Positions 28,669 to 41,289 of a stretch of DNA of 64,000 bases are shown in pieces. The notes under the pieces were generated by a model. It made no database searches and had not been told where the DNA came from. It saw nothing but the letters and a program-made list of their open reading frames with translations. The position numbers were made by a program, and so were the translations under genes. Position 1 is the first letter of the stretch; the number at the start of each line of letters is the position of its first letter. Source of the DNA: Piscinibacter sp. XHJ-5 (GTDB lineage Bacteria > Pseudomonadota > Gammaproteobacteria > Burkholderiales > Burkholderiaceae_C); the NCBI RefSeq assembly GCF_029855045.1, contig NZ_CP123228.1:5952001-6016000 (forward strand), read 5' to 3'.

Positions 28669-28725
28669 GCGGGCGCGCTGTGTCGAGTGATGGGGCTGGT
28701 GAACGGGGCAGCCGACGTGCCACGC

Positions 28726-28731
28726 TATAAT
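28726..28731 (+). promoter_or_regulatory. -10 hexamer of the tRNA-Met gene
   Basis: A perfect TATAAT lies 10 bp before the mature tRNA 5' end. No strong -35 hexamer is visible at 16-18 bp upstream. Confidence 0.55.
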
Positions 28732-28741
28732 CACGGGCTCA

Positions 28742-28818
<77 letters not shown>

Positions 28819-28823
28819 AACAA

Positions 28824-28877
28824 GATCGACAGCTTAGTGGGCCTTCCCCACGTCATGGCGTTTCAAGCTGTCTGATC
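28824..28877. repeat. Nested inverted repeat between tRNA-Met and the gntR gene
   Basis: The outer arms GATC-GACAGCTT (28824-28835) and AAGCTGTC-T-GATC (28865-28877) enclose an inner hairpin GTGGG-CCTTC-CCCAC (28837-28851). It sits where tRNA-Met and the twelve-gene minus-strand cluster converge, so it may act as a shared terminator or processing structure. There is no T tract on either strand. Confidence 0.45.
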
Positions 28878-28889
28878 GCTCCCGCAAGC

Positions 28890-29618
28890 CTACCCCTGCC
28901 GCAAGCGATACAGCGTATCGAGCGTGATGTGCCTGACTTCGAGCTTGCTCTGCTCGATGTGCGCCCGCAGCAGCCGCTGCGCCTCGTCGCCGCGGCGGCG
29001 GGTGATGGCGCGCAGGATGCGGGCGTGCTCGTCATAGGTCGCCTCCACCCGCGCGCCCTTGGTGAAATCGAGTCGGCGAATGATCCGGATGCGCTCGGTG
29101 ATCTCCCGGTGCACGCGCTCCATCTCGCGGTTGCCGCTGCCTTGCACCAGCAAGGCATGGAAGGCTTCGTCCAGCGCGCCCACCGCCGCGCCGTCGGCCA
29201 GCCGCTCCGCGGGGGGCACCAGCCACAGCTCGGCCAGCGCCTCGAGCTGCGGACGGTCCTCGATCGCGGCCAGGTGCTGCACGGCATGGCATTCGATCAG
29301 CACGCGCAAGTCGTACAGCGCGTCGAAGGTGTCGAAGTCGAGCGGCGCCACCTGCCAGCCGAGCTTCGGAAAGACGAGCAGAAAGCCTTCCCGCTCGAGC
29401 CGCTGCAGTGCCTGCCGCAGCGGGGTGCGGCTGACCTGCACGCGCTGCGCGAGCTCCGACTCGGAGAAGCGGTCGCCGGGCAGCAGCGCGAAGTCAAAGA
29501 TCATCGCCTTGACCTGGGCATAAGCCTGGTCGGCCAGGCTGGCGGGTTCCGTCGCGGCGGGCAGCGGCACGATGGCAGGGCCGGCGGCGATCGCGATGCG
29601 GGGGCGAACGGGCTTCAT
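28890..29618 (-). CDS. GntR/FCD-family regulator of the urea-condensate cluster
   Basis: 242 aa from ATG at 29618. The N-terminal winged helix-turn-helix (about residues 27-95) contains LLPGDRFSESELAQRVQVS and RTPLRQALQRLEREGFL. The C-terminal FCD ligand-binding helical domain has DLRVLIECHAV and later DEAFHALLV and HARILRAI. It is the last gene of the twelve-gene minus-strand run and overlaps the AtzH-like gene by 4 bases. Most such regulators repress their own cluster and release on binding the substrate or a metabolite. A GTATAC-centred site 52 bp before the first gene is a candidate operator. Confidence 0.9.
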   Translation of the reverse strand: MKPVRPRIAIAAGPAIVPLPAATEPASLADQAYAQVKAMIFDFALLPGDRFSESELAQRVQVSRTPLRQALQRLEREGFLLVFPKLGWQVAPLDFDTFDALYDLRVLIECHAVQHLAAIEDRPQLEALAELWLVPPAERLADGAAVGALDEAFHALLVQGSGNREMERVHREITERIRIIRRLDFTKGARVEATYDEHARILRAITRRRGDEAQRLLRAHIEQSKLEVRHITLDTLYRLRQG

Positions 29619-30013
29619 CGGGTTTCGTCGAAAGCGATCATGCTGACATGGGCGGCGACGATCTTCCACCCTTCGGCGAACCGGACCCAGGTCTGCGTCT
29701 GGAAACCGCGCAGCGGTGTGTCGCTGCGAACGAACTCCACCTGCGCCACCGCGAACCCGTCGCCATAGGCCGTGATTCGCGGGTTCAGCAGCGTGCGGGT
29801 GAAGGTGGGCGCCGGCGTTGCGGCGCGAAACGCGGCGAGCTCGGCGATGCCCCACTGCCGGTCCGCGATGCCGTAGCGCGTCGTGCGCTCATCCGCCCAG
29901 AAGAAGGCGTTGAGTGCCTCCACGTCGTTGGCCATCAGCGCGCGCTCGTAGTCCGCGAACACGCGCCGCACCTCGGCCAGCACCTGCGGACGATCGACGT
30001 CGTGAAGCGTCAT
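29615..30013 (-). CDS. hpxZ: AtzH-like (HpxZ/DUF3225) carboxybiuret decarboxylase candidate
   Basis: 132 aa from ATG at 30013. It is a single NTF2/SnoaL-like domain of the AtzH/HpxZ (DUF3225) family: DYERALMANDVEALNAFFW then ADERTTRYGIADRQWG. Tyr22 and Arg46 are present, the residues I recall as catalytic in AtzH, which decarboxylates 1-carboxybiuret to biuret. HpxZ proteins were first named in oxalurate catabolism; no hpx oxalurate genes are here, while biuret and allophanate hydrolases are, so the AtzH role fits better. It overlaps both neighbours by 4 bases. Confidence 0.8.
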   Translation of the reverse strand: MTLHDVDRPQVLAEVRRVFADYERALMANDVEALNAFFWADERTTRYGIADRQWGIAELAAFRAATPAPTFTRTLLNPRITAYGDGFAVAQVEFVRSDTPLRGFQTQTWVRFAEGWKIVAAHVSMIAFDETR

Positions 30014-31821
30014 CGCGCCGTGCTCTCGACATAGGCACGCCATCCGCCGAACCGGCTGACGTCGGGCGCGCCGGCCAGCGCATGCGGCTCGCAGATGAAG
30101 CCCTTGACCCAGCGGCCCCACGGCCCGCAATCCTCGGCGAGCTCCACCGAGCCGAGGCCGAGCGGCGGCGGGATGAGCGTCAGGAAGGAGCCGACCTGCT
30201 CCAGCGGCATCTCATACACCTCGACCGCAATGGCACTGCCGCCCTCCGGCACCCGCGCGAGACCCGGCTTGGGCGGCGACGTGCCGGCCAGCGCATGCAG
30301 ACGGTAGTGGGGCGCGGTGCGCGTGGCCGCGAGCAGCCGGCAGCCGCGCTCGACGATCTGCCCGTGCAAGGGCATCCCCGACAGATGCGCTCCCACGACG
30401 GCGATGGGCACGGTGGCCCCCGCCGCGGGGCCTGCCCGCAGGGCGCGGTCCTCGGCCGCGGCGTCGCGCAGCCGCGCGCCGAGCGGCAATGCGCTGGCCG
30501 CTTCCCACCGCAGCGCGAGCTGCACCAGCGCCGCATCGCAGCCGCCCGGCGCGATGAAGGTGATGCCGAACGGCAACCCGCGCGCCGTGATGCCGGCCGG
30601 CAGGGCCAGCGCCGACAGGTCCAGCAGGTTGACGAAGTTCGTGTAGCGTCCCAGCTCGCTGTTGCGCGCCACCGGCGATTCGGCGACAGCTGCGCGCGTG
30701 GGGCAGGTGGTGGCCGTCGGCACCATCAGCACATCGAAGTCCTGCCATGCAGGCGCGATGCGCGCGCGGGCCTCTTCGAGCCGGTATCGCGCGCGGAAGG
30801 CAGCGGTGGCGTCGTGGCCTTGCGCACGGGCGATCACCTCGCGCACGGTCGGATCGAGCGCTTCGGGTCTCGATTCGATGAGCGCCTGCACGACGGCGTG
30901 GCGTTCGGCCACCCAAGGACCGTCGTAGAGCAGCTCGGCGACGTCGAACCATGCATTCATGTCGACTGCGACGACTTCGGCTCCCAGCGTGGCCAGCCGC
31001 TCCACCGCGTCTTGCCATGCGCGTTCGTACCCCAGGGCGGCATCGCATTCGCTGCGAAGGGGCACGCCCACCCGCAAGGCGGCGCCGGTGCGACCGAACC
31101 ACGGGCGCTGCAGGCGCACCGGATGGAAGCACGCCTCGTCGGGCAACGGACCGCCCATCAGGGCGGTCACCCGCGCCGCATCGGCGACGGTGAGCGCGAA
31201 GACCGACACGACGTCGAGCGTGCGGCACGCCGGCAGAACACCGCCCATCGGAACCAGACCCGGCGTCGGCTTGAGTCCGACCAGGTTGTTGAAGCCCGCG
31301 GGCACGCGCCCCGAGCCGGCGGTGTCGGTGCCCAGCGCGAAGGGCACCAGCCCGCGCGCCACCACCGATGCCGAGCCGGAGCTCGATCCGCCGCTCACGT
31401 AGGCCGGATCGAAGCTGTTCGGCACCTCGCCGTAAGGCGAGCGCGTGCCGACCAGGCCGGTGGCGAACTGATCGAGATTGGTCTTGCCGACCATCACCGC
31501 GCCGGCGTCGAGCAGCCGCTGCACGACCGTCGCATGCCGCTCGGGCACATACGCGAAGGCAGGGCAAGCCGCGGTCGTCGGCACACCGGCGACATCGATG
31601 TTGTCCTTCACCGCAAAGGGCACGCCCCACAGCGGCAGCGTGCGTGGCAGCACCTGCAGGCGTGCGAGCTGGTCCTCGACGACTCGCCGGTCGCAACGGT
31701 GGATCCACGCGGGATCGTCGGACGAGAGTCGCGCCAGCGCCGCGCCGACCAGCACCGAGGGATCGGCCCCATGGCGATACTCGCGCTGCCAGTCGGCGAG
31801 GGTGATGGGCATGGCTGTCAT
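30010..31821 (-). CDS. atzF: Allophanate hydrolase
   Basis: 603 aa from ATG at 31821; ATG at 31812 is a possible alternative. The amidase-signature domain (about residues 1-440) carries the Ser-cisSer-Lys triad: Lys72 in [13 protein letters not shown], Ser146 in [10 protein letters not shown] and Ser170 in GTDTAGSGR. The spacing is the same as the AtzF triad I recall (K91, S165, S189). The C-terminal ~160 residues form the extra domain specific to allophanate hydrolases ([18 protein letters not shown]). Length matches AtzF (~605). It converts allophanate to ammonia and CO2, the last step of biuret and cyanurate degradation. No urea carboxylase gene adjoins it. Overlaps both neighbours by ATGA. 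Confidence 0.92.
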
Positions 31822-32486
31822 CGCGAAAGGCTTTCGATGAGGGCGGCAGCCGGCGCGGTCCAGCCGACGATCGCGCCCTGCGCCGTCACCATCGCCAGCG
31901 TCGCCGCCTTGAACTCGGGGAAGTAGCTCTCGGTGGCGTCCTCCACCAGCAGGCACTCGTAGCCCCGGTCGTTGGCCTCGCGCATCGAGGTCTGCACGCA
32001 CACCTCGGTCGTCACGCCCATGAACACCAGGTGGGTGATGCCCCGCTGCTGGAGCTGCGCGTGGAGGTCGGTCGCGTGGAAGGCGCCCTTGCCCGGCTTG
32101 TCGATCAGCAGCTCGTCGCCGCGCGGCTCGAGGCCCGGCACGATGTCGTTGCCGGGCTCGCCGGCGACGAGGATGCGGCCCATCGGGCCCGCATCTCCGA
32201 TGCGCAGGCGGGGGTTGCCGCGGGTGCGCTTGGCGGGCGGGCAGTCGGAAAGGTCCGGGGCATGCGCTTCGCGCGTGTGCACCACCAGGCCGCCGGCCGC
32301 CCGCCACACCTCGAGGACGCGGCGCACCGTGGGCACGATGCGTTGCAGCCGCGTCACGTCGTTGCCGAGCGACTCGCCGAAGCCGCCCGGCTCGATGAAG
32401 TCGCGCTGCATGTCGATGATGACCAGCGCGGTGCGCGGCGGGTCGAAGCGGTAGTCGAAAGGCGTGGCCGCCAGGGAGATGGTCAT
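31818..32486 (-). CDS. Isochorismatase-like cysteine hydrolase, candidate triuret hydrolase
   Basis: 222 aa. Catalytic triad positions: Asp25 in [10 protein letters not shown], Lys130 in [10 protein letters not shown] and Cys163 in [18 protein letters not shown]. Gln203 follows, 40 residues after the Cys. The same spacing occurs in the BiuH-like paralogue at 36702-37385, yet other segments differ ([18 protein letters not shown], no Trp-Pro-Tyr start). Family members hydrolyse amides in biuret, triuret, ureidoacrylate or nicotinamide. With biuret hydrolase already encoded nearby and an AtzH-like gene two genes downstream, a hydrolase making carboxybiuret from triuret (TrtA type) is my preferred reading. 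Ureidoacrylate or another ureido amide is the alternative. Confidence 0.72.
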
Positions 32487-34024
32487 GCCGCCCTCCGTTC
32501 GATGAAGGCATGCGCACGCCCCGCCATGCAGGCGCCCAGCGCATGGCGGTCGGCCTCCGCGGCGGCGACCTCGTGCACGATGCGGCCGTCGCTCATCACG
32601 ACGATGCGATCGGCCAGCAGCAGCAGCTCGTCGAGGTCTTCGCTGACCAGCAGCACGGCCGCGCCCCGGTTGCGGGCAGCCATCAGTCGCGCATGGATCT
32701 CGGCCACCGCGGCGAAGTCGAGCCCGAACACGGGGTTGGACACGAGCAGCAGCTCGGCCTCATCGGACAGCTCGCGCGCCAGCACCGCGCGCTGCACGTT
32801 GCCGCCCGACAGCGAACGCATCGGCGCGCGCTCGCTCTGCGCCTTGATGCCGTACTCCGCGATCCACGACCGCGCACGCCGGCGCAGCGAGCCCCAGAGG
32901 ATCCAGCCCGCGCGCGCATGCGGCGGCTCGTCGAAGCAGCGCAGCGCCATGTTGTGCGCCACGCCGAGGTCGCCGACGCAGGCGTTGGCCAGCGGCTCTT
33001 CGGGCAGGCTGCGCACCTTCAGCGCGCGGTTCTGGCGGCGGGTGGCGCCGAACGCCTGGCCGGCCACGCTCACTCGGCCGGCTTCGCGCGCACGCTGGCC
33101 GGTCAGCGCCTGCATCAGCTCGCGCTGGCCGTTGCCCGAGACGCCGGCGATGCCGACGATCTCACCGACGCGCACGGACAGCGTCAAGTCGCGCACCGCC
33201 GGCTGGCCGCGATCGCCCATCACCTGCAGGTCCTCGATGGCGAGCCTCACCGCCCCGGGCGGCCGCTGTGTGCGCTGCAAGGGCGCGGCCATGGCGGCAC
33301 GCGATTCGCCCATCATTGCCGCGGCCAGTTGTTGAGGCGTCGTCTCGGCCACCGGCAGGCTCTCGACGAGCCGGCCCCGACGCAGCACGCTGACATCGTC
33401 GGCATGCGCCGTCACTTCGCGGAACTTGTGGGTGATCAGGATCACCGAGCAGTCGCCCGCGTGCGCGCGCTCGCGCAAGGCGCTCAGCACCTCGTCGGCC
33501 TCCTGCGGCGTCAGCACCGAGGTCGGCTCGTCGAGGATCAGCAGGCGCGGCCGCAGAAAGAGCTGCTTGAGGATCTCCAGCTTCTGCCTTTCGCCGGCCG
33601 ACAGGTCGCGCGGCATCGCGTCGAGGTCGAGGCTGAACGGCGCGCTGCGCATGAAGGCAGCCAGCTCGGCACGCGCCGCGCGCCAGTCGACGACCAGCGG
33701 CACCCGCCCGCGCGCGAGCAGCAGGTTCTCGGCCACGCTCATGCCCGGCACCACGGTGAAGTGCTGGTAGACCATGCCGATGCCCAAGGCGCGCGCCGCG
33801 GCGGGCGCATGGATGTCCTGCTCGCGCCCGTCGACGAGGACGGCGCCGTCGTCCGCCCGGTGGTAGCCGACGATGCACTTCACCAGCGTGCTCTTGCCCG
33901 CGCCGTTCTCGCCGAGCAGCGCATGCACGGTGCCCGGGCGAACGGCAAGCGACACGCTGTCGAGCGCCGTGAACGCACCGAAGCGCTTGGTCAGCTTGAA
34001 TGTCTCGAGCGCGACGGCATGCAT
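32483..34024 (-). CDS. Double-NBD ABC transporter ATPase of the BMP type
   Basis: 513 aa with two nucleotide-binding halves, like RbsA/YufO nucleoside-sugar ATPases. First half: [18 protein letters not shown]-loop YQHFTVV, signature [11 protein letters not shown] and Walker [12 protein letters not shown]. Second half: a degenerate Walker A ([12 protein letters not shown]), signature [15 protein letters not shown] and no normal Walker B Asp-Glu ([12 protein letters not shown]). An asymmetric pair like this is normal for the family. It should energise the two BMP-type permeases at 37421-39447, from which it is separated by the NitT/TauT genes. The stop overlaps the downstream hydrolase start. 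Confidence 0.9.
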
Positions 34025-34025
34025 A

Positions 34026-34916
34026 TCACGCGGCCATTTCCCGCCGGAACACGTCGAGCGTGTGCGACTTCACGCGCACGAACTCCATGTCGGACACCGC
34101 TTCCGGCATGCGCGGCCGCGGCATCTCGAAGGGCACGATTTCGGCGATGCGGGTCGGCCGGCGCGTGAGCAGGAGGATGCGATCGGCAAGGAACACCGCA
34201 TCCTCGAGGTCGTGCGAGACGATCACCATCGTCGTGCCGGTGGCGATCTGCGCCTCCTGCAGCTTGGCGCGGATGAACAGCGTCATCTCGAAATCCAGTG
34301 CGGAGAATGGCTCGTCGAGAAACAGCACCTCGGGCCGCGTGGCGAGCGAGCGCATGATGCAGACGGTCTGCATCTGCCCGCCCGACAGCTCGTACGGATA
34401 GCGCTTGAGGTCGAAGCGGATCTCGAACAGCGCCGCCAGCTCGTCCACCCGAGCGCGCACGTCGGCTGGCTTCATGCCGCGCCGCTTCAGCGGGTAGGCG
34501 ATGTTGTGCCAGGCGCTGAGCCAGGGGAACAGCGCGTCACGGTAGTTCTGGAACACGTAGCCGATCTGTGTGTCCTTCAGTGACTTGCCGTCGAACAGGA
34601 TCTCGCCGGCGTCGGGCTTCACCAACCCGGCGATCATGTTCATCAGCGTCGACTTGCCGCAGCCGTTGGGACCGAAGATCGACACGATGCGCCCGCGCGG
34701 GAGGTCGAGGTTGAAGTTGCTGTACAGCGGCACGCCCGCGAAGGACTTGCTCAGGCCGCGCACCGTCACGTGCGTGGACGGTGCGGGGCGCAGCGTGAGC
34801 ACGGTGTCCGTCTCAAGGAGCGACCCCTCGAGCGGCTGCCGCGGATCCGGCTTCGCCGGGCCGCCCGACACACCTTCTCGAGGGAGGACATCGAACGCGC
34901 TCCGCGGGTGGTTCAT
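34026..34916 (-). CDS. NitT/TauT-type ABC transporter ATPase
   Basis: 296 aa from ATG at 34916. About 50 residues of leader precede the ATPase: Walker A GPNGCGKSTLMNMIAG, Q-loop YVFQNYRDALFPW, signature ELSGGQMQTVCIMRSLA and Walker B VLFLDEPFSALD, then the H-loop SHDLEDAVFLADR. This subfamily powers import of nitrate, sulfonates, pyrimidine precursors or similar small compounds. The start overlaps the permease stop by 4 bases. One base separates its stop from the next gene's start. Confidence 0.92.
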   Translation of the reverse strand: MNHPRSAFDVLPREGVSGGPAKPDPRQPLEGSLLETDTVLTLRPAPSTHVTVRGLSKSFAGVPLYSNFNLDLPRGRIVSIFGPNGCGKSTLMNMIAGLVKPDAGEILFDGKSLKDTQIGYVFQNYRDALFPWLSAWHNIAYPLKRRGMKPADVRARVDELAALFEIRFDLKRYPYELSGGQMQTVCIMRSLATRPEVLFLDEPFSALDFEMTLFIRAKLQEAQIATGTTMVIVSHDLEDAVFLADRILLLTRRPTRIAEIVPFEMPRPRMPEAVSDMEFVRVKSHTLDVFRREMAA

Positions 34917-35674
34917 TTCGCGCTCCAGTGAATGAGCCTCTTCTCGATCAACAGGAAACCCAGGTTCAGCAGGTACCCCAGCGCGCCGGTGACGAGGATG
35001 GAGGTGTACATGTCCTTCACGTTGAACACCTGCTGCGCATCGATGATGCGGTGGCCCAGCCCGGTCTCCGAGCCGATGAACATCTCGGCGACGATGACGA
35101 TGACCAGCGCCATCGACACCGCACTGCGCAACCCGACGAACGTCTGCGCCAGGCTTTCCATCAGCATCACGTCGGCGAACACGTGCAGCCGCGACACGCC
35201 CATGATCTGCGCGGCCATCACACGCGTCTTCTTGGCATGCATGACGCCGTAGGCGCTGTTGAACAGCACGATGAGCATCGCGCCGAAGCTGGCAATCGCG
35301 ATCTTGTTGATGTCGGTGATGCCGAAGATCAGCAGGAACAGCGGGATCAGCGCAGAGCTGGGCGTGGAGCGGAAGAAGTCGATGACGAACTCGACGCTGC
35401 GGTACGCGCTCTCGGAGGCGCCGAGGATCACGCCGAGCGGCACGCCGATCAGCACCGCGATGCCGAACGACGCGAGCGTGCGGTACACCGTGGCCCACAG
35501 GTCGGGAAGAATGGCACCGCTTGCGAACACCTCGGCGAGATGCGCGAGCGTCTGGCCCGGCGGCGGCAGCAGCACGGGCTTGATCCACTGCGCCGAGATC
35601 ATGAGCTGCCACAGCGCGAGCATGAGCAGCGGGCCCAGCAGCGGCAGCCAGCGGCGGTGGAGGAGGCGCTGCAT
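34913..35674 (-). CDS. NitT/TauT-type ABC transporter permease
   Basis: 253 aa, six predicted membrane helices. A BPD_transp_1 core with the EAA-like loop AAQIMGVSRLHVFADVMLM, which contacts the ATPase. It starts 4 bp after the binding-protein stop and overlaps the ATPase start. With its neighbours it forms a complete three-part importer. Confidence 0.92.
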   Translation of the reverse strand: MQRLLHRRWLPLLGPLLMLALWQLMISAQWIKPVLLPPPGQTLAHLAEVFASGAILPDLWATVYRTLASFGIAVLIGVPLGVILGASESAYRSVEFVIDFFRSTPSSALIPLFLLIFGITDINKIAIASFGAMLIVLFNSAYGVMHAKKTRVMAAQIMGVSRLHVFADVMLMESLAQTFVGLRSAVSMALVIVIVAEMFIGSETGLGHRIIDAQQVFNVKDMYTSILVTGALGYLLNLGFLLIEKRLIHWSAK

Positions 35675-35678
35675 GGCG

Positions 35679-36671
35679 TCAGCCCGTGTAGAGCAGCGAC
35701 TTGACGTCCAGCTTGCGGCTGAAGATCTTGCGCTCGGTGAAGACGTCGAAGAACTTCTGGAAGTACTCGATATCGCTCGGCTTGAACTCGTTGTACAGCG
35801 TGAAGCCGGACAGCGGCACCTCCTTCACCAGCGAAGCGTCGATCGACGTGAAGCCGTCCAGGTGGGTGCGCGACTCCTCCGGATTCCTGCGCACCCACTC
35901 CACCGCCTTCGAATAGGCAGCGACGTAGCGCCGTGCGAGCTCCGGCTTCTCGCGCATGAACGCGCTCGTCACGCTCGCCGAGCCGCCGAACCACGGTGCA
36001 TCGGGGTTGCCCAGCACGTACGTCGAGATCACGCCGGGCTCGAGCACCCGCGTGAGTCCCTTGAGCCGGCCTGCCGTGCCGGTGGGCTCCAGCGTGTACA
36101 CCGCATCGAGCTGGCCGGCTGCGAGCGCCGGCACGTGCTGTCCGATCGGGAGCTCGGTGACCTGCGGATTGGGGATGCCGTTCTTCTCGAGGATCACCTT
36201 GGCCAGCGTGACATTCTGGATGCCGGGCCCCGATGCAATCCTCTTGCCCGCCAGCTCGGCAATGCTCTTGACCGGCGAGTCCTTCGGCACGACGAACTGG
36301 TCGAGCACCAGGTGGCGGTTGCTCGGGTTGCTGCAGATGATCTTGAAGAGCCCCGGGCTGGTGATCTCGGCCAGGCCCAGCGCGGCCGACGCGGTGCCGT
36401 TGGCCGATCCGTGCACCCGCCCCGCGATCATCGCCTCGGCCACCTGCTGCGCGCTCGCGAACTTGGCCCCCTCCACCTGCAGGCCGGCTTCCTTGAAGAT
36501 GCCGCGCTCCAGGCCGACATACAGGGGCAGGCCCGACGCGATCGGCCAGAAGCCGATCACGATCCGGTCGTCGGCCGCAACCGACTTGCGTGACAAGCCG
36601 ACCAGTGCGGCGCAGGCCGCACCGGCCTGGAGCAGGCGGCGTCGCGACAAGGTGCGGATCAGAGCGCTCAT
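35679..36671 (-). CDS. NMT1/SsuA-type ABC substrate-binding protein
   Basis: 330 aa. The N-terminus SRRRLLQAGAACAALVG reads as a twin-arginine or Sec signal, with likely cleavage near SVAA (about residue 33). The NMT1/SsuA fold starts RIVIGFWPIASGLPLYVG, followed by KEAGLQVEGAKF and AGRVHGSANGTASAALG. Such proteins bind small nitrogen- or sulfur-containing ligands in the periplasm. Next to biuH the ligand is probably a ureido compound such as biuret, but this is inference. A TPP riboswitch is ruled out by the 30-bp upstream gap. Confidence 0.9.
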   Translation of the reverse strand: MSALIRTLSRRRLLQAGAACAALVGLSRKSVAADDRIVIGFWPIASGLPLYVGLERGIFKEAGLQVEGAKFASAQQVAEAMIAGRVHGSANGTASAALGLAEITSPGLFKIICSNPSNRHLVLDQFVVPKDSPVKSIAELAGKRIASGPGIQNVTLAKVILEKNGIPNPQVTELPIGQHVPALAAGQLDAVYTLEPTGTAGRLKGLTRVLEPGVISTYVLGNPDAPWFGGSASVTSAFMREKPELARRYVAAYSKAVEWVRRNPEESRTHLDGFTSIDASLVKEVPLSGFTLYNEFKPSDIEYFQKFFDVFTERKIFSRKLDVKSLLYTG

Positions 36672-36701
36672 GGGGTTCCCCTTCCTTGGATGTTCGTGGT
36701 G

Positions 36702-37385
36702 TCAGAGCGCGCGCAGCGCCTCGATGACGGCCGTCGATTGCGCGACGGCGCCGAAAACACCGCCTTGCATCTGGATCATCTTCAGCGCGGCCTCATGGTT
36801 GCCGCGGTCCGTCGCGCCCGTGCAGTCGGCCAGCATCACGCACTCGAACCCGCGGTCGTTGGCTTCGCGCATCGTGGTGTGCACGCAGACGTCGGTCGTG
36901 ATGCCGGTCAGGATCAGGTTGCGGATGCCCCGCGTGTGCAGGATCAGCTCGAGATCGGTGGCGCAGAACGAACCCTTGCCCGGCTTGTCGATGACGGGCT
37001 CGCCGTCCACCGGTGCGAGCTCCGGGATGATCTCCCAGCCGGGCTCGCCGCGCACCAGGATGCGCCCACACGGACCTGCGTCGCCGATGCCGGCGCCGAT
37101 GCGCTGCGAGCGCCACCGCTTGTTGTCGGGCAGGTCGGCCAGGTCGGGGCGATGCCCTTCGCGGGTGTGGATCACGTGCAGTCCCACCTCGCGGGCCACC
37201 GTGAGCAAGGCCTTGATCGGCTCGATCGGCGCGCGCGTCAGCGACAGGTCGTAGCCCATCTTGTCGACGTAGCCGCCGATACCGCAGAAATCGGTCTGCA
37301 TGTCGATGATCACCAGCGCGGTGTTGCGCGGCGTGAGCTGACCGTCGTAGGGCCAGGCGTAGGGTTCGGCGCGGAGCGTGGGCAT
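36702..37385 (-). CDS. biuH: Biuret amidohydrolase
   Basis: 227 aa. Catalytic residues are Asp28 ([12 protein letters not shown]), Lys134 ([10 protein letters not shown]) and Cys167 ([18 protein letters not shown]), with Gln207. These are offset by exactly 8 from the Rhizobium BiuH residues I recall (D36, K142, C175, Q215). The N-terminal [19 protein letters not shown], the [10 protein letters not shown] block and [19 protein letters not shown] also read like BiuH. It hydrolyses biuret to allophanate and ammonia in the cytoplasm; AtzF encoded in the same run takes allophanate further. It sits 30-35 bp from both neighbours, between the two transporter gene sets. Confidence 0.9.
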
Positions 37386-37420
37386 CGAAAGCCTCCTTCA
37401 ATGGTCCAGACCGTCGGCGG

Positions 37421-38344
37421 TCATCGCGACAGCGTCAGCTCGACGGGCGCGCCCTTCAGCGAGCGCCGCGGCGAGCAGGTCGCCACGAGGATCGCCAGCG
37501 TGAGCGCATAGGGCACGGCATTGATCAGGTGGTGATAGCCGCCGCTGAGGCCCACCGATTGCAGCGCCGGGCCGATCGCGCCCGCGCCGCCGAACAGCAA
37601 TGCAGCCGCCAGGCAGGCGAGCGGTCGCCAGCGCGCGAAGATGACCAGCGCGACCGCGATGAGCCCCTGCCCGCTCGACAGCCCTTCGTTCCAGCTCCCC
37701 GGGTAGTACAGCGACAGGGAGGCGCCGCCCAGGCCGGCGATGAAGCCGCCCGTGGTGGTGGCGGCGATGCGTACGCGATTGACCGAATAGCCCAGCGCGC
37801 GCGCCGCGTCGGTCGAGTCGCCGGCCATGCGGACGACGAGACCGAAGCGTGTGTTGGCGAAGCCCCAGGCCATCAGAGCGGCCAGGGCCAGCCCGATCGG
37901 GAACAGCGCGTTGACGGCGAGTGCTGCCTGCACTGCAGGCGAGTCGCTCCACGCACCGAGCGCGATCGCCGGGATCTGCGGCGCCTGCGGCTGGATCAGC
38001 GGCTTGCCGAGATAGAACGCGAGCCCAGTGCCGAGCAGCATCAGCGCGATGCCGGTCGCGATGTCGGAGACCCGCGGCAGCGAGCACAGCAGGCCGTGCA
38101 GCAGCGCGAGCAGCGCGCCGCTCGCGCCGGCGGCCAGCACGCCGATCCACGGCGAGCCGCTCGTCCAGGCGCCGGCGAATCCCGCCATCGCCGAGAAGAC
38201 GAGGACGCCTTCCAGACCGAGGTTCACGCGGCCCGACTTCTCGGTGAGGCACTCGCCCAGGCTCACGAACAGAAACGGCGTGCCGACGCGGATCGCGCCG
38301 CCCAGCATCGCGAGCAGCAAGGTGCCCCAGGGCTCGACGTTCAT
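37421..38344 (-). CDS. BMP-type ABC transporter permease (second)
   Basis: 307 aa from ATG at 38344; a much longer frame upstream is an overlap artefact. Eight to nine membrane helices of the BPD_transp_2 (LIV/RbsC) family. Features include TEKSGRVNLGLEGVLVFSAM, a hallmark of BMP-family nucleoside permeases, and the loop ARALGYSVNRVRIAATTTGG. Overlaps the other permease by 4 bases. Confidence 0.9.
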   Translation of the reverse strand: MNVEPWGTLLLAMLGGAIRVGTPFLFVSLGECLTEKSGRVNLGLEGVLVFSAMAGFAGAWTSGSPWIGVLAAGASGALLALLHGLLCSLPRVSDIATGIALMLLGTGLAFYLGKPLIQPQAPQIPAIALGAWSDSPAVQAALAVNALFPIGLALAALMAWGFANTRFGLVVRMAGDSTDAARALGYSVNRVRIAATTTGGFIAGLGGASLSLYYPGSWNEGLSSGQGLIAVALVIFARWRPLACLAAALLFGGAGAIGPALQSVGLSGGYHHLINAVPYALTLAILVATCSPRRSLKGAPVELTLSR

Positions 38345-39447
38345 GCCGTGACCCTCCCGCTCGCCAGTCGCGGCCGCATCGGCATGGCGAGCCGCCAGGC
38401 GAACAGCCGCCCGCGCATGGCCTCGGCGCCGAGGATCGTCACGAAGGCGAAGCCCTGCAGCACCAGCACCGACGCATCGGGCAGGCCCATGCGCCGCTGC
38501 AGCAGGCTGCCGGCCGCGGCGAAGCCGCCGAACAGGATGGCCACCGGCGGGATGGCCCACGGGTTGTGGCGCGCCACGAAGGACACCAGGATGCCCGTGT
38601 AGCCGAAGCCGGCGAGCACCGACGCGTTGGCCGAGGTGTGCACCGCCGCGACTTCGATCGCGCCGGCCAGGCCTGCGCATGCCCCGCCCGCCGCGCAGGC
38701 CAGCACGATCAGCCGGTTCGCCGCAAGCCCGACGCCGCGGGCGGCGCGCACGTTGCCGCCGACCACGCGCACCGCAAAACCCGGCACGCTGAAGCTGAGC
38801 CACACGCCGGCCGCCACGCAGGCGACGAGGCCGAAGGCCAGTCCCCAATGCACATCGCCGAGCATGCCGTCCGGAACGATGGCGCCGATGCGAAGGCTCT
38901 CTTCGAGCGGCGGCGTCGACGGCTTGTTGAGACTCGCCGGATCGCGCATCGGGCCCTCCACGAAATGGCGGAAAAGCGCCAGCGCGATGTAGCCGAGCAG
39001 CAGGCTCGAGATGGTCTCGTTGACACCCCGCCATTGGCGAAGCAGGCCCGCCAGGGCGACCCAGGCCGCGCCGCACGCCGCCCCGCTCGCCAGCACCACT
39101 GCACTGCCCGCAGCGCCGTGCGGCAGCGGCAGCAGCAGGGGCAGCGCGGCACAACCCAGCGCGCCGAGCGCGAAGGCGCCTTCGCCGCCGATGACCACCA
39201 GCCCGGCACGCGCCGGCAACGCGACGGCCAGGCCGGTGAGCATCAGCGGCGCCGCACGCAACAGCGTGTTCTGCCATGAGAAGCTGTCGCCGAAGGCGCC
39301 GCGAAACAGCAGCGCCCAGGCGTCGACAGGACTGTGGCCGCCGAACCAGACGAACACGCCGAAGCAGAGCAGCGCGGCCGCAAGAGCAACGACGGGCAGC
39401 AGAACCGCCTCCGCCGGACCCTGCCAGGAACGCGCCGCGTCGTTCAT
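38341..39447 (-). CDS. BMP-type ABC transporter permease (first)
   Basis: 368 aa, eight or more membrane helices, BPD_transp_2 family. VVIGGEGAFALGALGCA matches the conserved GxEG block and VNETISSLLLGYIALAL the N-E-T-I-S-S block typical of YufP-like permeases. The ATPase contact region is VVGGNVRAARGVGLAANRLI. Pairs with the permease at 37421-38344 and the ATPase at 32483-34024. Begins 3 bp after the binding-protein stop. Confidence 0.9.
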   Translation of the reverse strand: MNDAARSWQGPAEAVLLPVVALAAALLCFGVFVWFGGHSPVDAWALLFRGAFGDSFSWQNTLLRAAPLMLTGLAVALPARAGLVVIGGEGAFALGALGCAALPLLLPLPHGAAGSAVVLASGAACGAAWVALAGLLRQWRGVNETISSLLLGYIALALFRHFVEGPMRDPASLNKPSTPPLEESLRIGAIVPDGMLGDVHWGLAFGLVACVAAGVWLSFSVPGFAVRVVGGNVRAARGVGLAANRLIVLACAAGGACAGLAGAIEVAAVHTSANASVLAGFGYTGILVSFVARHNPWAIPPVAILFGGFAAAGSLLQRRMGLPDASVLVLQGFAFVTILGAEAMRGRLFAWRLAMPMRPRLASGRVTA

Positions 39448-39450
39448 CGC

Positions 39451-40569
39451 CTAGACCGTGCCGACAACGCCTTCGACCAGGTAGTTCATCGATTCGAGCT
39501 CGAGGTCGGTCTGCTTCAACACCTTGCCGGCCGGGATGACGACCTTGCCGGTGTTGTCCTTCAGCGCGCCCTTGAAGATGTCGAACTGGCCCGCGACCAT
39601 CTGCGCGCGCACCGCATCGGCCTGCTTGCGCGCGGCCTCGCTCACCATGGCGCCGTAGGGCGAGTTCTTGACGAAGCCGTCCTTCAGGCCGCCGCGGACG
39701 AAATTCGGATGCGGCTTGCCGCTGCGCGCCGCCTCGACGATCTGCTTGTAGGCCGTCGCCCAGTTCCACTCGGCGCCGGTGAGATAGGCGTTGGGGGCGA
39801 GCTTGGCCTGGCTCGCGTGGTAGCCGCAGACCAGCTTGCCGCGCTTGGCGGCCGTCTCGACGATGACCTTGGGGCCGTCCACGTGCATCGTCAACACGTC
39901 GATCCCGTGGTCGGCGAGGCTGTTCGTCGCCTCCGCCTCCTTGACCGCCATCGACCAGTCGCCGGTGAAGATCACCGTCGTCGTGACGTCGGGACGGACG
40001 GAGCGCGCCCCCAGGGTGAAGGCGTTGATGTTGCGCAGCACCTGCGGAATGGGCTTGGCCGCGATGAAGCCCAGCTTCCTGGACTTCGTCATGTGGCCGG
40101 CGACGACGCCGTTGAGGTACTGGGCCTCGTCGATGTAGCCGAAGAAGCTGCCGGCGTTCCTCGGATGCTTGGCTTCGTTCCAGAGTCCGCCGCAGTGCGC
40201 GAATCGGATGCTCGGATTCTTCGCCGCCACCGCCAGCACGTGGGGATCGAAGTAGCCGAAGGAGGTGGGGAACAGCAGCGTTGCGCCGTCCTGCACGATC
40301 ATGCCCTGCATGGCCTTCTGCACGGCCACCGTCTCGGGCACGTTCTCTTCCTCGACGATCTTGATGCCCGGCAGCGCCTTCACCGCCGCGGCGCCCTCGG
40401 CATGCGCCTGGTTGTAGCCGTAGTCGTCGCGCGGGCCGACGTAGATGAAGCCCACGGTGACCGGCTTGCCCTGTGCCAAGGCCGCGCCCCACCCCATCGT
40501 CGCCGTCCCCGCTGCGAGGGCCGTCGCGCCCTTCAGCCACTCCCGTCGATCCCATTGCCGGTCTGTCAT
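39451..40569 (-). CDS. BMP-family ABC substrate-binding protein
   Basis: 372 aa from ATG at 40569 with AGAGGAGC upstream. The N-terminus DRREWLKGATALAAG has a twin-arginine-like motif, cleaved probably after AALAQ (about residue 33). The mature part has the BMP/PnrA-like start VTVGFIYVGPRDDYGYNQAH and later EWNWATAYKQIVEAARSG. BMP proteins usually bind nucleosides or purines; homologues beside amidases may bind ureides. It is the first gene of the twelve-gene run, so the 342-bp upstream region is where the run's promoter should be. Confidence 0.91.
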   Translation of the reverse strand: MTDRQWDRREWLKGATALAAGTATMGWGAALAQGKPVTVGFIYVGPRDDYGYNQAHAEGAAAVKALPGIKIVEEENVPETVAVQKAMQGMIVQDGATLLFPTSFGYFDPHVLAVAAKNPSIRFAHCGGLWNEAKHPRNAGSFFGYIDEAQYLNGVVAGHMTKSRKLGFIAAKPIPQVLRNINAFTLGARSVRPDVTTTVIFTGDWSMAVKEAEATNSLADHGIDVLTMHVDGPKVIVETAAKRGKLVCGYHASQAKLAPNAYLTGAEWNWATAYKQIVEAARSGKPHPNFVRGGLKDGFVKNSPYGAMVSEAARKQADAVRAQMVAGQFDIFKGALKDNTGKVVIPAGKVLKQTDLELESMNYLVEGVVGTV

Positions 40570-40620
40570 CGATCGCTCCTCTGCTGGTGTCGGTGCGTAT
40601 GCACGCATCTGGTGTGCCGG

Positions 40621-40632
40621 TTGGTATACAAG
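40621..40632 (-). promoter_or_regulatory. Candidate GntR-family operator before the urea-condensate operon
   Basis: TTGGTATACAAG is a near-palindrome around GTATAC and contains T-N-G-T-N-N-A-C-N-A, similar to sites of FadR/FCD-type GntR regulators. It lies 52 bp before the first gene's ATG, where it would overlap or adjoin a promoter. The cluster's own GntR gene makes it a logical ligand-responsive site. I saw no second copy nearby. Confidence 0.45.
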
Positions 40633-40772
40633 CAACGATCGGGCCAACGGACGACCGGATCGGCGCAGCAGGCGCCCATCGCTGGAGTTCGCCTCGGTGG
40701 ACGAGCGACAGCTCGGCCCGAGGGCGTGCCGTACGCGTCCCGGCATGCGGCCGCAGGACGCCCGCATTTCGG

Positions 40773-40801
40773 GATCGATGCCCCGCGCCGGGGCATCGAT
40801 C
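40773..40801. repeat. Perfect 29-bp palindrome between the operon and the next gene
   Basis: GATCGATGCCCCG and its exact reverse complement CGGGGCATCGATC (13-bp arms) surround CGC. It sits 204 bp upstream of the BMP binding-protein start and 111 bp before the gene at 40912. There is no T tract, so it is not a standard terminator; a dimeric-protein binding site or cruciform-prone element is likelier. The rest of the 342-bp gap has no gene. Confidence 0.6.
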
Positions 40802-40828
40802 GGGCACCAGCGCCCACGGCGAACCCGG

Positions 40829-40866
40829 CATAATCCGATCCATTCGGCTCCCCACGGAGCCGTTTT
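40829..40866 (+). promoter_or_regulatory. -10-like hexamer followed by a leader hairpin
   Basis: CATAAT at 40829-40834 could be a -10 box for the gene at 40912. Right after it, CGGCTCC-CCAC-GGAGCCG (40845-40862) plus TTTT forms a terminator-like hairpin at the start of the presumed leader. It may attenuate transcription, or terminate readthrough. No strong -35 is visible. Confidence 0.3.
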
Positions 40867-40911
40867 GCTCTCGGCCTTTCCCGTTTCCTCAACAGCCACT
40901 GGATCTACACC

Positions 40912-41289
40912 ATGTACCGCTGTGCCCTCGCTACCGCGGCAGCCATCTGCCTGGTCGCGCCCGCGGCCGCTCAGCAGCGAGCCTTCCCCCAGAACGCCTT
41001 GCGCGGCGCGCTCGTGCTGACATCGACATCGGACGCCACGCTGAACGGGAAGCCGGCGCGCCTCGCGCCAGGCCTGCGCATCCGAGGCCAGGACAACATG
41101 CTGGCCATGTCGGGCTCTCTGCTGGGAGCCAAGCTGCTGGTGAACTACACCGTCGACATGCAGGGCCTGGTGAAGGACGTCTGGGTCCTGACTCCGGACG
41201 AAGCGGCGAAGAAGCCGTGGCCGGTCACCGCGCAGGAAGCCCAGGCCTGGAGCTTCGACCCGGTGGCGCAAGTCTGGACCAAGCCGTGA
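40912..41289 (+). CDS. Conserved hypothetical exported protein
   Basis: 125 aa. The Sec signal peptide [20 protein letters not shown] is probably cleaved after AAAQ (about residue 21), leaving a small soluble domain rich in beta-like segments ([37 protein letters not shown]). No Cys pair or known motif. It starts 19 bp before miaB and may share its transcript, though no functional link is evident. Family known to me only as a hypothetical in Burkholderiales. Confidence 0.75.

Follow-up and report, generated by a model that had tools for sequence, protein, structure and literature searches.

A twelve-gene operon of Piscinibacter sp. XHJ-5 predicted to take up and degrade triuret and biuret

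What is the function of twelve closely packed genes on the minus strand of the genome of Piscinibacter sp. XHJ-5? They fill positions 28890-40569 of the 64-kb stretch of DNA analysed here (the window), which corresponds to positions 5952001-6016000 of a genome consisting of one 6.65-Mb contig. All twelve open reading frames (ORFs) are intact and contiguous. An earlier note on this DNA took them for a complete gene set leading from triuret via carboxybiuret, biuret and allophanate to ammonia, with its own uptake and regulator. As far as predictions from sequence go this view is supported. The operon is very probably a nitrogen-scavenging unit which imports triuret and biuret and degrades both to ammonia. 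The enzymology of the triuret pathway as such is already published (PMC7948467).

In the order of transcription the genes are bmpA-nupB-nupC-biuH-sbp2-perm2-atp2-nupA-trtA-atzF-trtB-gntR (Table 1; nupA, nupB, nupC, sbp2, perm2 and atp2 are labels coined in this analysis). This order is directly observed, as are the gene families, the residue signatures and the conservation of a promoter block described below. The families named in the earlier note, i.e., two ATP-binding cassette (ABC) importers, two isochorismatase-like hydrolases, an allophanate hydrolase, an AtzH-like protein and a GntR regulator, agree with the domain searches. Its description of the junctions, gaps of at most 35 bp and mostly 4-bp overlaps, is accurate as well: six of eleven overlap by 4 bp (nupB/nupC, perm2/atp2, nupA/trtA, trtA/atzF, atzF/trtB, trtB/gntR) and the other five are gaps of 3, 35, 30, 4 and 1 bp in transcription order.

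Consider first the hydrolase encoded at 31818-32486. Against the crystallised Herbaspirillum TrtA (6XIX) it aligns over 214 residues without a gap at 332 bits, whereas the BiuH structures 6XJM and 6AZO are far below with 219 and 204 bits. On the NCBI BiuH equivalog model NF050097 it scores 244.5, under the cut-off of 370. The catalytic triad, the pocket and six positions which discriminate TrtA from BiuH have been named (PMC7948467). In the window protein the triad D24/K129/C162 and the pocket residues F29, E72, K132, T158 and Q202 are all present (window numbering +1), and so are the TrtA-type F35, N41, A134, E160, Y187 and I205 (string DFFNEKKATECYQI). Thus, all 14 published catalytic and specificity positions checked are TrtA-type. 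We examined the same positions in 80 fetched trtA loci, the best 80 of at least 571 confirmed matches and selected by trtA. The string is identical in 65; the remaining 15 deviate at A134 alone (M in 11, S in 3, G in 1), so that 13 of 14 positions are kept in all 80. A134 to Ser is reported as the sole change which left TrtA activity unharmed (PMC7948467). Judged by its specificity residues the protein is a TrtA-type, not a BiuH-type hydrolase. The published TrtA is described as ultraspecific for triuret with a Michaelis constant of about 20 uM (PMC7948467).

One might object that this ORF codes for a guanylurea hydrolase or a different amidase of the isochorismatase fold. Guanylurea hydrolases do belong to the same family and share at most 65% identity with its other members (PMC9800807). 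With all six TrtA/BiuH-separating positions of the TrtA type, in a comparison which did not include guanylurea hydrolase sequences, we consider this extremely improbable.

In a survey of the order, 57 of 399 genomes have a TrtA match with an E-value of 1e-40 or below, a count to which BiuH-like copies contribute, and 35 of 399 do so at 60% identity or more, the genome of the window among them (counted from rows). Among 20 extra loci with weaker TrtA matches the full signature is present in 18 and absent from L269 and L270. In 14 of these 18 (L255-L259, L261, L263-L268, L271, L272) the full-signature TrtA is not part of a triuret cluster, and its stretch contains neither a BMP importer nor AtzH-type genes. 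In L253 and L254 (genomes G023 and G153) a single cluster combines BiuH with two TrtA copies, one at 61-62% and one at 67-68% identity, each of which has all TrtA-type residues.

The second isochorismatase-like protein (36702-37385) passes NF050097 with 428.7 bits. At the six discriminating positions it has Y, Y, S, D, T and V (string DFYYEKKSTDCTQV), which matches the BiuH letters named in PMC7948467 at F35Y, N41Y, A134S, E160D and Y187T, with V at I205. AtzF scores 752 bits on TIGR02713 (cut-off 511), possesses both the Amidase and the AH_C domain, and is the sole match when the genome is searched for AH_C.

The protein at 29615-30013 requires more discussion. It matches PF11533 (AtzH-like) with 152.9 bits and is encoded by the single PF11533 gene of the genome. 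The earlier note ascribed decarboxylation of carboxybiuret to AtzH. This has to be corrected: AtzH has been assigned to 1,3-dicarboxyurea and not to carboxybiuret (PMC6219798), and the carboxybiuret decarboxylase has been named TrtB (PMC7948467). The pocket residues listed for AtzH are Y22, R46, R63, R66, R73, F94, R96, Q106 and Q108 (PMC6219798). Eight of these nine residues are present in the window protein and Arg66 is replaced by Thr; also, the protein groups with Herbaspirillum TrtB. It is predicted to be TrtB. One point weighs against this assignment: the protein also exceeds the cut-off of the NCBI HpxZ model NF033625 (152.2 vs 135). Arg66Ala and Arg66Lys variants of AtzH were made and are absent from the five variants reported as impaired, which argues against an essential or direct role of Arg66 (PMC6219798).

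The HpxZ score opens the way to another explanation, according to which the operon serves the breakdown of purines, oxalurate or another ureide, with an HpxZ-like small protein, a purine-specific BMP importer and triuret as an incidental substrate. We regard this as highly improbable. The HpxZ model does not separate the groups, since the AtzH-type gene of L047 passes it too. HpxZ genes accompany HpxX/HpxY (AtzG/AtzE-type) genes. Such partners are missing among the twelve operon genes, and an AtzE profile search of the genome gave a best score of 275 against a cut-off of 425.75, which one control genome did exceed. A uricase search of the genome found nothing, while two control genomes gave matches. 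The reported ultraspecificity of TrtA also speaks against it; the importer is considered below. Cyanuric acid as a source was dropped as well: AtzD (PF09663) was not found in the genome, a weak result since no control genome matched either. A urease is present in the genome.

Is the loss of Arg66 linked to the absence of AtzE? For 154 genes which differ in sequence, L009-L088 contributing 54 and L101-L200 another 100, we compared residue 66 with the presence of an adjacent AtzE, defined as one no more than 1.5 kb away on the same strand. The latter are 100 of the 103 non-window matches of at least 139 bits from order and phylum searches; weaker matches and the other three were left out. A gene was considered trtA-linked if its stretch also holds a TrtA with 54% identity or more. 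In these 79 genes Arg66 and AtzE occur together in 49, neither in 28, Arg66 without AtzE in two and AtzE without Arg66 in none, i.e., agreement in 77 of 79. As to the two exceptions, the stretch of L069 stops 113 bp upstream of the gene and L194 has an AtzE elsewhere in its stretch. In the same order of categories the counts are 31, 22, 1 and 0 in L009-L088, the set from which the hypothesis was generated, and 18, 6, 1 and 0 in the later loci. In the 75 genes which are not trtA-linked both occur in 47, neither in three, Arg66 alone in 23 and AtzE alone in two; consequently, Arg66 does not require AtzE. Of the five unlinked genes without Arg66, L147 and L156 are in triuret-type clusters, L161 is beside a 52% TrtA relative, and L164 and L167 are neither. 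Arg66 is counted in 123 of 155 rows of the multiple alignment and in 121 by pairwise mapping.

In an AtzH/TrtB tree (155 rows, 124 columns, midpoint root, many forks unresolved) the window protein is one of 24 rows which include Herbaspirillum L077 and L079 (branch support 95/80); none has Arg66 or an adjacent AtzE. Further Arg66-less rows are on the AtzH side: Variovorax L029, L038, L048 and L083, then L147, L152 with L166, L161, L164 and L167. Residue 66 changes seven times on the best tree (bootstrap 6-7), of which well-supported branches force two only. A phylogenetically independent test of the Arg66/AtzE link has two pairs on supported branches, and significance is out of reach; thus, the link is a pattern and not a significant test. 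The AtzE-type trtA clusters (e.g., L047, L018, L023) carry AtzG-like, AtzE- and AtzH-type genes and could instead send carboxybiuret to dicarboxyurea, a second way of handling it next to BiuH. Accordingly, two kinds of trtA cluster can be told apart, and that of the window is of the TrtB kind.

Importer 1 consists of a Bmp (PF02608) protein, two BPD_transp_2 permeases and a double-ATPase. The nearest solved relatives of BmpA are AtzT (6PI5) and 3S99, both of which bind purines (PMC6834077), a point in favour of a purine importer. AtzT binds guanine at 0.11 uM via Ser97, Glu165, Asn218, Asn220 and the backbone of Phe98, between Tyr45 and Trp194 (PMC6834077). In BmpA the pocket is Y52, S103, F104, Q176, N180, W205, H229 and D231. 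The fold family, the aromatic Tyr/Trp sandwich, Ser and Phe are common to both, yet Glu165 is replaced by Gln176, Asn218 by His229 and Asn220 by Asp231; that this Tyr is the equivalent of Tyr45 is our reading of the alignment. The Glu which reads guanine is lost. This argues against a purine cargo, and the altered pocket would suit ureides.

The pocket was compared in BMP genes with and without linkage, judged inside the fetched stretch; L208 was counted as unlinked though it lies about 5 kb past a triuret-type bmpA on the same contig. The 71 BMP genes in stretches which hold trtA or biuH show YSFQNWHD (59), the same with unread N-terminal positions (6), YSYQNWHD (2), WSFSNWHD (1) and WSFENWND (3). 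Gln, His and Asp occur together in 67 of these 71 and in none of 42 distinct unlinked genes (43 rows; L134 and L222 hold the same gene). Individually, the unlinked genes have Glu at 176 in 35 and Gln in five, His229 in 13 and Asp231 in 34. His229 and Asp231 thus are common there too, and the contrast lies in Gln176 and in the combination. The three linked WSFENWND copies (L031, L039, L149) are distant BMPs with 33-35% identity, purine-type genes near a few trtA loci which a purine reading may claim for itself. The unlinked L134 BMP (WSFENWND) adjoins an adenosine-deaminase-family gene, which is what one would expect if it serves a purine importer. Other residue combinations are seen in six unlinked matches at 46-54% identity. 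Four of these six, L203-L206 (46-47% identity, YSYQSWQD), belong to a related BMP importer which is beside a remote BiuH relative (34%) and may serve another ureide. AtzT carries a twin-arginine translocation (Tat) signal (PMC6834077). Twin-arginine-like motifs are directly readable at the N-termini of both binding proteins of the window, DRREWLK in BmpA and SRRRLLQ in Sbp2.

Could biuret be the main natural substrate, with importer 1 as a biuret importer and TrtA handling only accompanying traces of triuret? biuH sits directly among the importer genes, and the biuH-linked BMP of L207 shares the Q/H/D pocket, with no trtA in the fetched stretch. On the other hand, 60 of the 80 loci have the bmpA-nupB-nupC-biuH-nupA core along with trtA, though these loci were chosen by trtA, and the low Michaelis constant of TrtA points to triuret as a real substrate (PMC7948467). 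We view the biuret explanation as unlikely, but as one to be taken seriously.

In the preferred scheme, a triuret and biuret operon whose activities, cargoes and regulatory logic are predicted, the BMP-type importer bmpA-nupABC would carry the ureide into the cell. TrtA would convert triuret to carboxybiuret and one ammonia, TrtB would decarboxylate carboxybiuret to biuret, BiuH would hydrolyse biuret to allophanate and a second ammonia, and AtzF would release the last two ammonias from allophanate. Importer 2, composed of an NMT1/SsuA-type binding protein, a BPD_transp_1 permease and an ATPase, probably takes up a related ureide or a precursor. Its genes are inserted between biuH and nupA, the ATPase gene of importer 1. 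Judged by the ATPase it is present in 36 of 54 testable loci (those whose flanks reach 9 kb or more upstream of trtA and 3.5 kb or more downstream), hence it is common yet dispensable. Loci without trtA (L101, L134) were examined for its cargo and gave no inference.

How would such an operon be controlled? bmpA and the divergent gene are separated by 40570-40911. A sigma-54 promoter is predicted here, followed by a GTATAC palindrome (Table 1). The sigma-54 consensus is TGGCAC-N5-TTGC with GG and GC 10 apart. Of the upstream regions of 45 bmpA genes with 70% identity or more, that of the window among them, 22 attain a sigma-54 score of 9/10 or more (simulated mean 0.8, maximum 4), compared with 3 of 44 upstream regions of other BMP genes. 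Among close bmpA genes from later loci 2 of 4 match, the window recounted among the four, too few to add to this. GTATAC is present in 11 of 45 (simulated mean 0.28, maximum 3), in 10 of these 11 two bases past the -12 box. The exact NtrC-like core GCAC-N7-GTGC is found in 9 of 45 (simulated 0.93) and in 7 of the 14 which we class as window-type (simulated 0.31). Given a sigma-54 promoter, expression probably requires nitrogen limitation (NtrC), and GntR probably represses at GTATAC until a pathway compound releases it.

Several observations speak against this regulatory scheme. A strong sigma-54 match is missing in 23 of 45 bmpA upstream regions, and the exact NtrC-like core was not found upstream of bmpA in the window. 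GTATAC is connected with GntR by position only and also occurs in 3 of 44 other BMP upstream regions. An ntrC mutant of Burkholderia cenocepacia, a species which may or may not have this operon, grew better, not worse, on biuret (PMC5491218). Apart from these points, bmpA does not come first in clusters of the AtzE type, so that its sigma-54 sites there would be internal. A search of 40500-41000 for a sigma-70 promoter found none. Ahead of the divergent gene, in the same intergenic region, the plus strand has a terminator-like stem-loop at 40845-40862.

Tentatively, and with somewhat more doubt than conviction, we propose a generalisation. Triuret clusters may define a BMP class which reads acyclic ureides instead of purines, along with a split of the AtzH fold: an Arg66 form would act on the dicarboxyurea of AtzE and an Arg66-less TrtB directly on carboxybiuret, the form following the presence of AtzE. 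All would be controlled by sigma-54 with a GntR block after the -12 box.

The arrangement is not a matter of chance, as the exact 12-gene order recurs in six of 80 loci (L010, L024, L030, L032, L067, L074). All twelve gene kinds are together in 10 of the 54 testable loci, including Herbaspirillum L077 and L079. The core of importer 1 and biuH is found in 49 of the 54, AtzH/TrtB in 42, gntR in 41, AtzE in 28 and AtzF (43% identity or more) in 24. The earlier note knew of no described cluster with both transporters and the regulator in one unit. This claim of novelty fails because of published clusters (2020, 2025) and these ten loci. TrtA/BiuH/AtzF operons have been in print since 2020. In 2025 trtA, biuH, trtB and atzF were described with a bmpA-nupABC importer in ammonia oxidisers, gntR being named in a synteny figure legend (PMC12625717). 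The accessible text of that paper shows four enzymes and importer 1 as in the window, yet no NMT1-type second importer and no promoter or pocket analysis.

Other known systems compare as follows. The triuret pathway of Herbaspirillum sp. BH-1 uses the same enzymes, TrtA, BiuH, AtzF and TrtB (PMC7948467). In Herbaspirillum L077 and L079, which are not BH-1 itself, atzF and importer 2 precede bmpA, whereas in the window the genes of importer 2 are enclosed by the importer 1 block. The cyanuric acid operon atzDGEHF of Pseudomonas sp. ADP has an AtzH-fold protein and AtzF in common with the window, yet there AtzEG acts on carboxybiuret and TrtA and BiuH are missing (PMC6219798). While the pathway itself is already known, the predicted promoter with GTATAC, the BmpA pocket signature and the pattern of residue 66 and AtzE are added here. 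The open-access papers searched gave no passage dealing with a second importer, a sigma-54 promoter, the pocket of BmpA or a link between AtzE and residue 66, which is no proof of absence as subscription papers, including Aukema 2020, and supplements were outside reach.

Triuret and biuret are minor impurities of urea fertiliser and thus reach farmland; oxidised uric acid is another source of triuret (PMC7948467). As the operon is complete and brings its own importer and control signals, it may serve as a test bed for bacterial uptake of triuret and biuret. Gln/His/Asp of BmpA and residue 66 of the AtzH fold may be used as markers to recognise triuret clusters in genomes and to distinguish between the two routes for carboxybiuret.

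Table 1. Genes of the operon, predicted control elements and bordering tRNA (window coordinates)
Feature	Position	Strand	Evidence or remark
bmpA, BMP/PnrA-type substrate-binding protein, importer 1	39451..40569	-	PF02608 133 bits; nearest structure AtzT 6PI5, 1.1e-61
nupB, importer 1 permease	38341..39447	-	PF02653 (BPD_transp_2)
nupC, importer 1 permease	37421..38344	-	PF02653 (BPD_transp_2)
biuH, biuret amidohydrolase (predicted)	36702..37385	-	NF050097 428.7 bits; 6AZO 1.4e-118; BiuH-type specificity residues
sbp2, NMT1/SsuA-type binding protein, importer 2	35679..36671	-	PF09084 62.5 bits; PDB matches weak only
perm2, importer 2 permease	34913..35674	-	PF00528 (BPD_transp_1)
atp2, importer 2 ATPase	34026..34916	-	PF00005
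nupA, double-ATPase subunit, importer 1	32483..34024	-	PF00005 in two stretches
trtA, triuret hydrolase (predicted)	31818..32486	-	6XIX (TrtA) 1.6e-98, 332 bits; 14/14 residues
atzF, allophanate hydrolase (predicted), amidase and C-terminal AH_C domain	30010..31821	-	TIGR02713 752 bits; PF21986
trtB, AtzH-like NTF2-fold protein, predicted carboxybiuret decarboxylase	29615..30013	-	PF11533 152.9 bits; tree with Herbaspirillum TrtB
gntR, GntR/FCD regulator, final operon gene	28890..29618	-	PF00392, PF07729
predicted sigma-54 promoter TGGCCC-N5-TTGCT (-24/-12)	40631..40646	-	9/10 consensus letters
GTATAC palindrome, candidate GntR operator	40624..40629	-	two bases after -12 box
tRNA-Met, borders operon	28742..28818	+	comparison with relatives

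Finally, the operon is positioned between tRNA-Met on one side and gene 40912-41289 on the other, which is followed by presumably miaB and by hemA (glutamyl-tRNA reductase). Insertion of a genomic island at the tRNA was considered and rejected. Direct repeats shared by 28701-28889 and 40561-40930 do not exceed 9 bp, an integrase is not among the twelve operon genes, and the G+C content resembles that of the flanks (65-72% over the operon vs 66-70%, 2-kb windows). Acquisition thus is backed by comparison with empty sites alone. In two of eleven fetched family relatives (L242, L243) hemA, miaB, the equivalent of gene 40912-41289, the tRNA and ftsY are contiguous and the operon is absent. In L250 and L251 the tRNA adjoins this equivalent, and in the other seven the short stretch compared does not show the tRNA. 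The small divergent gene 40912-41289 has no Pfam match and is upstream of miaB in relatives too.

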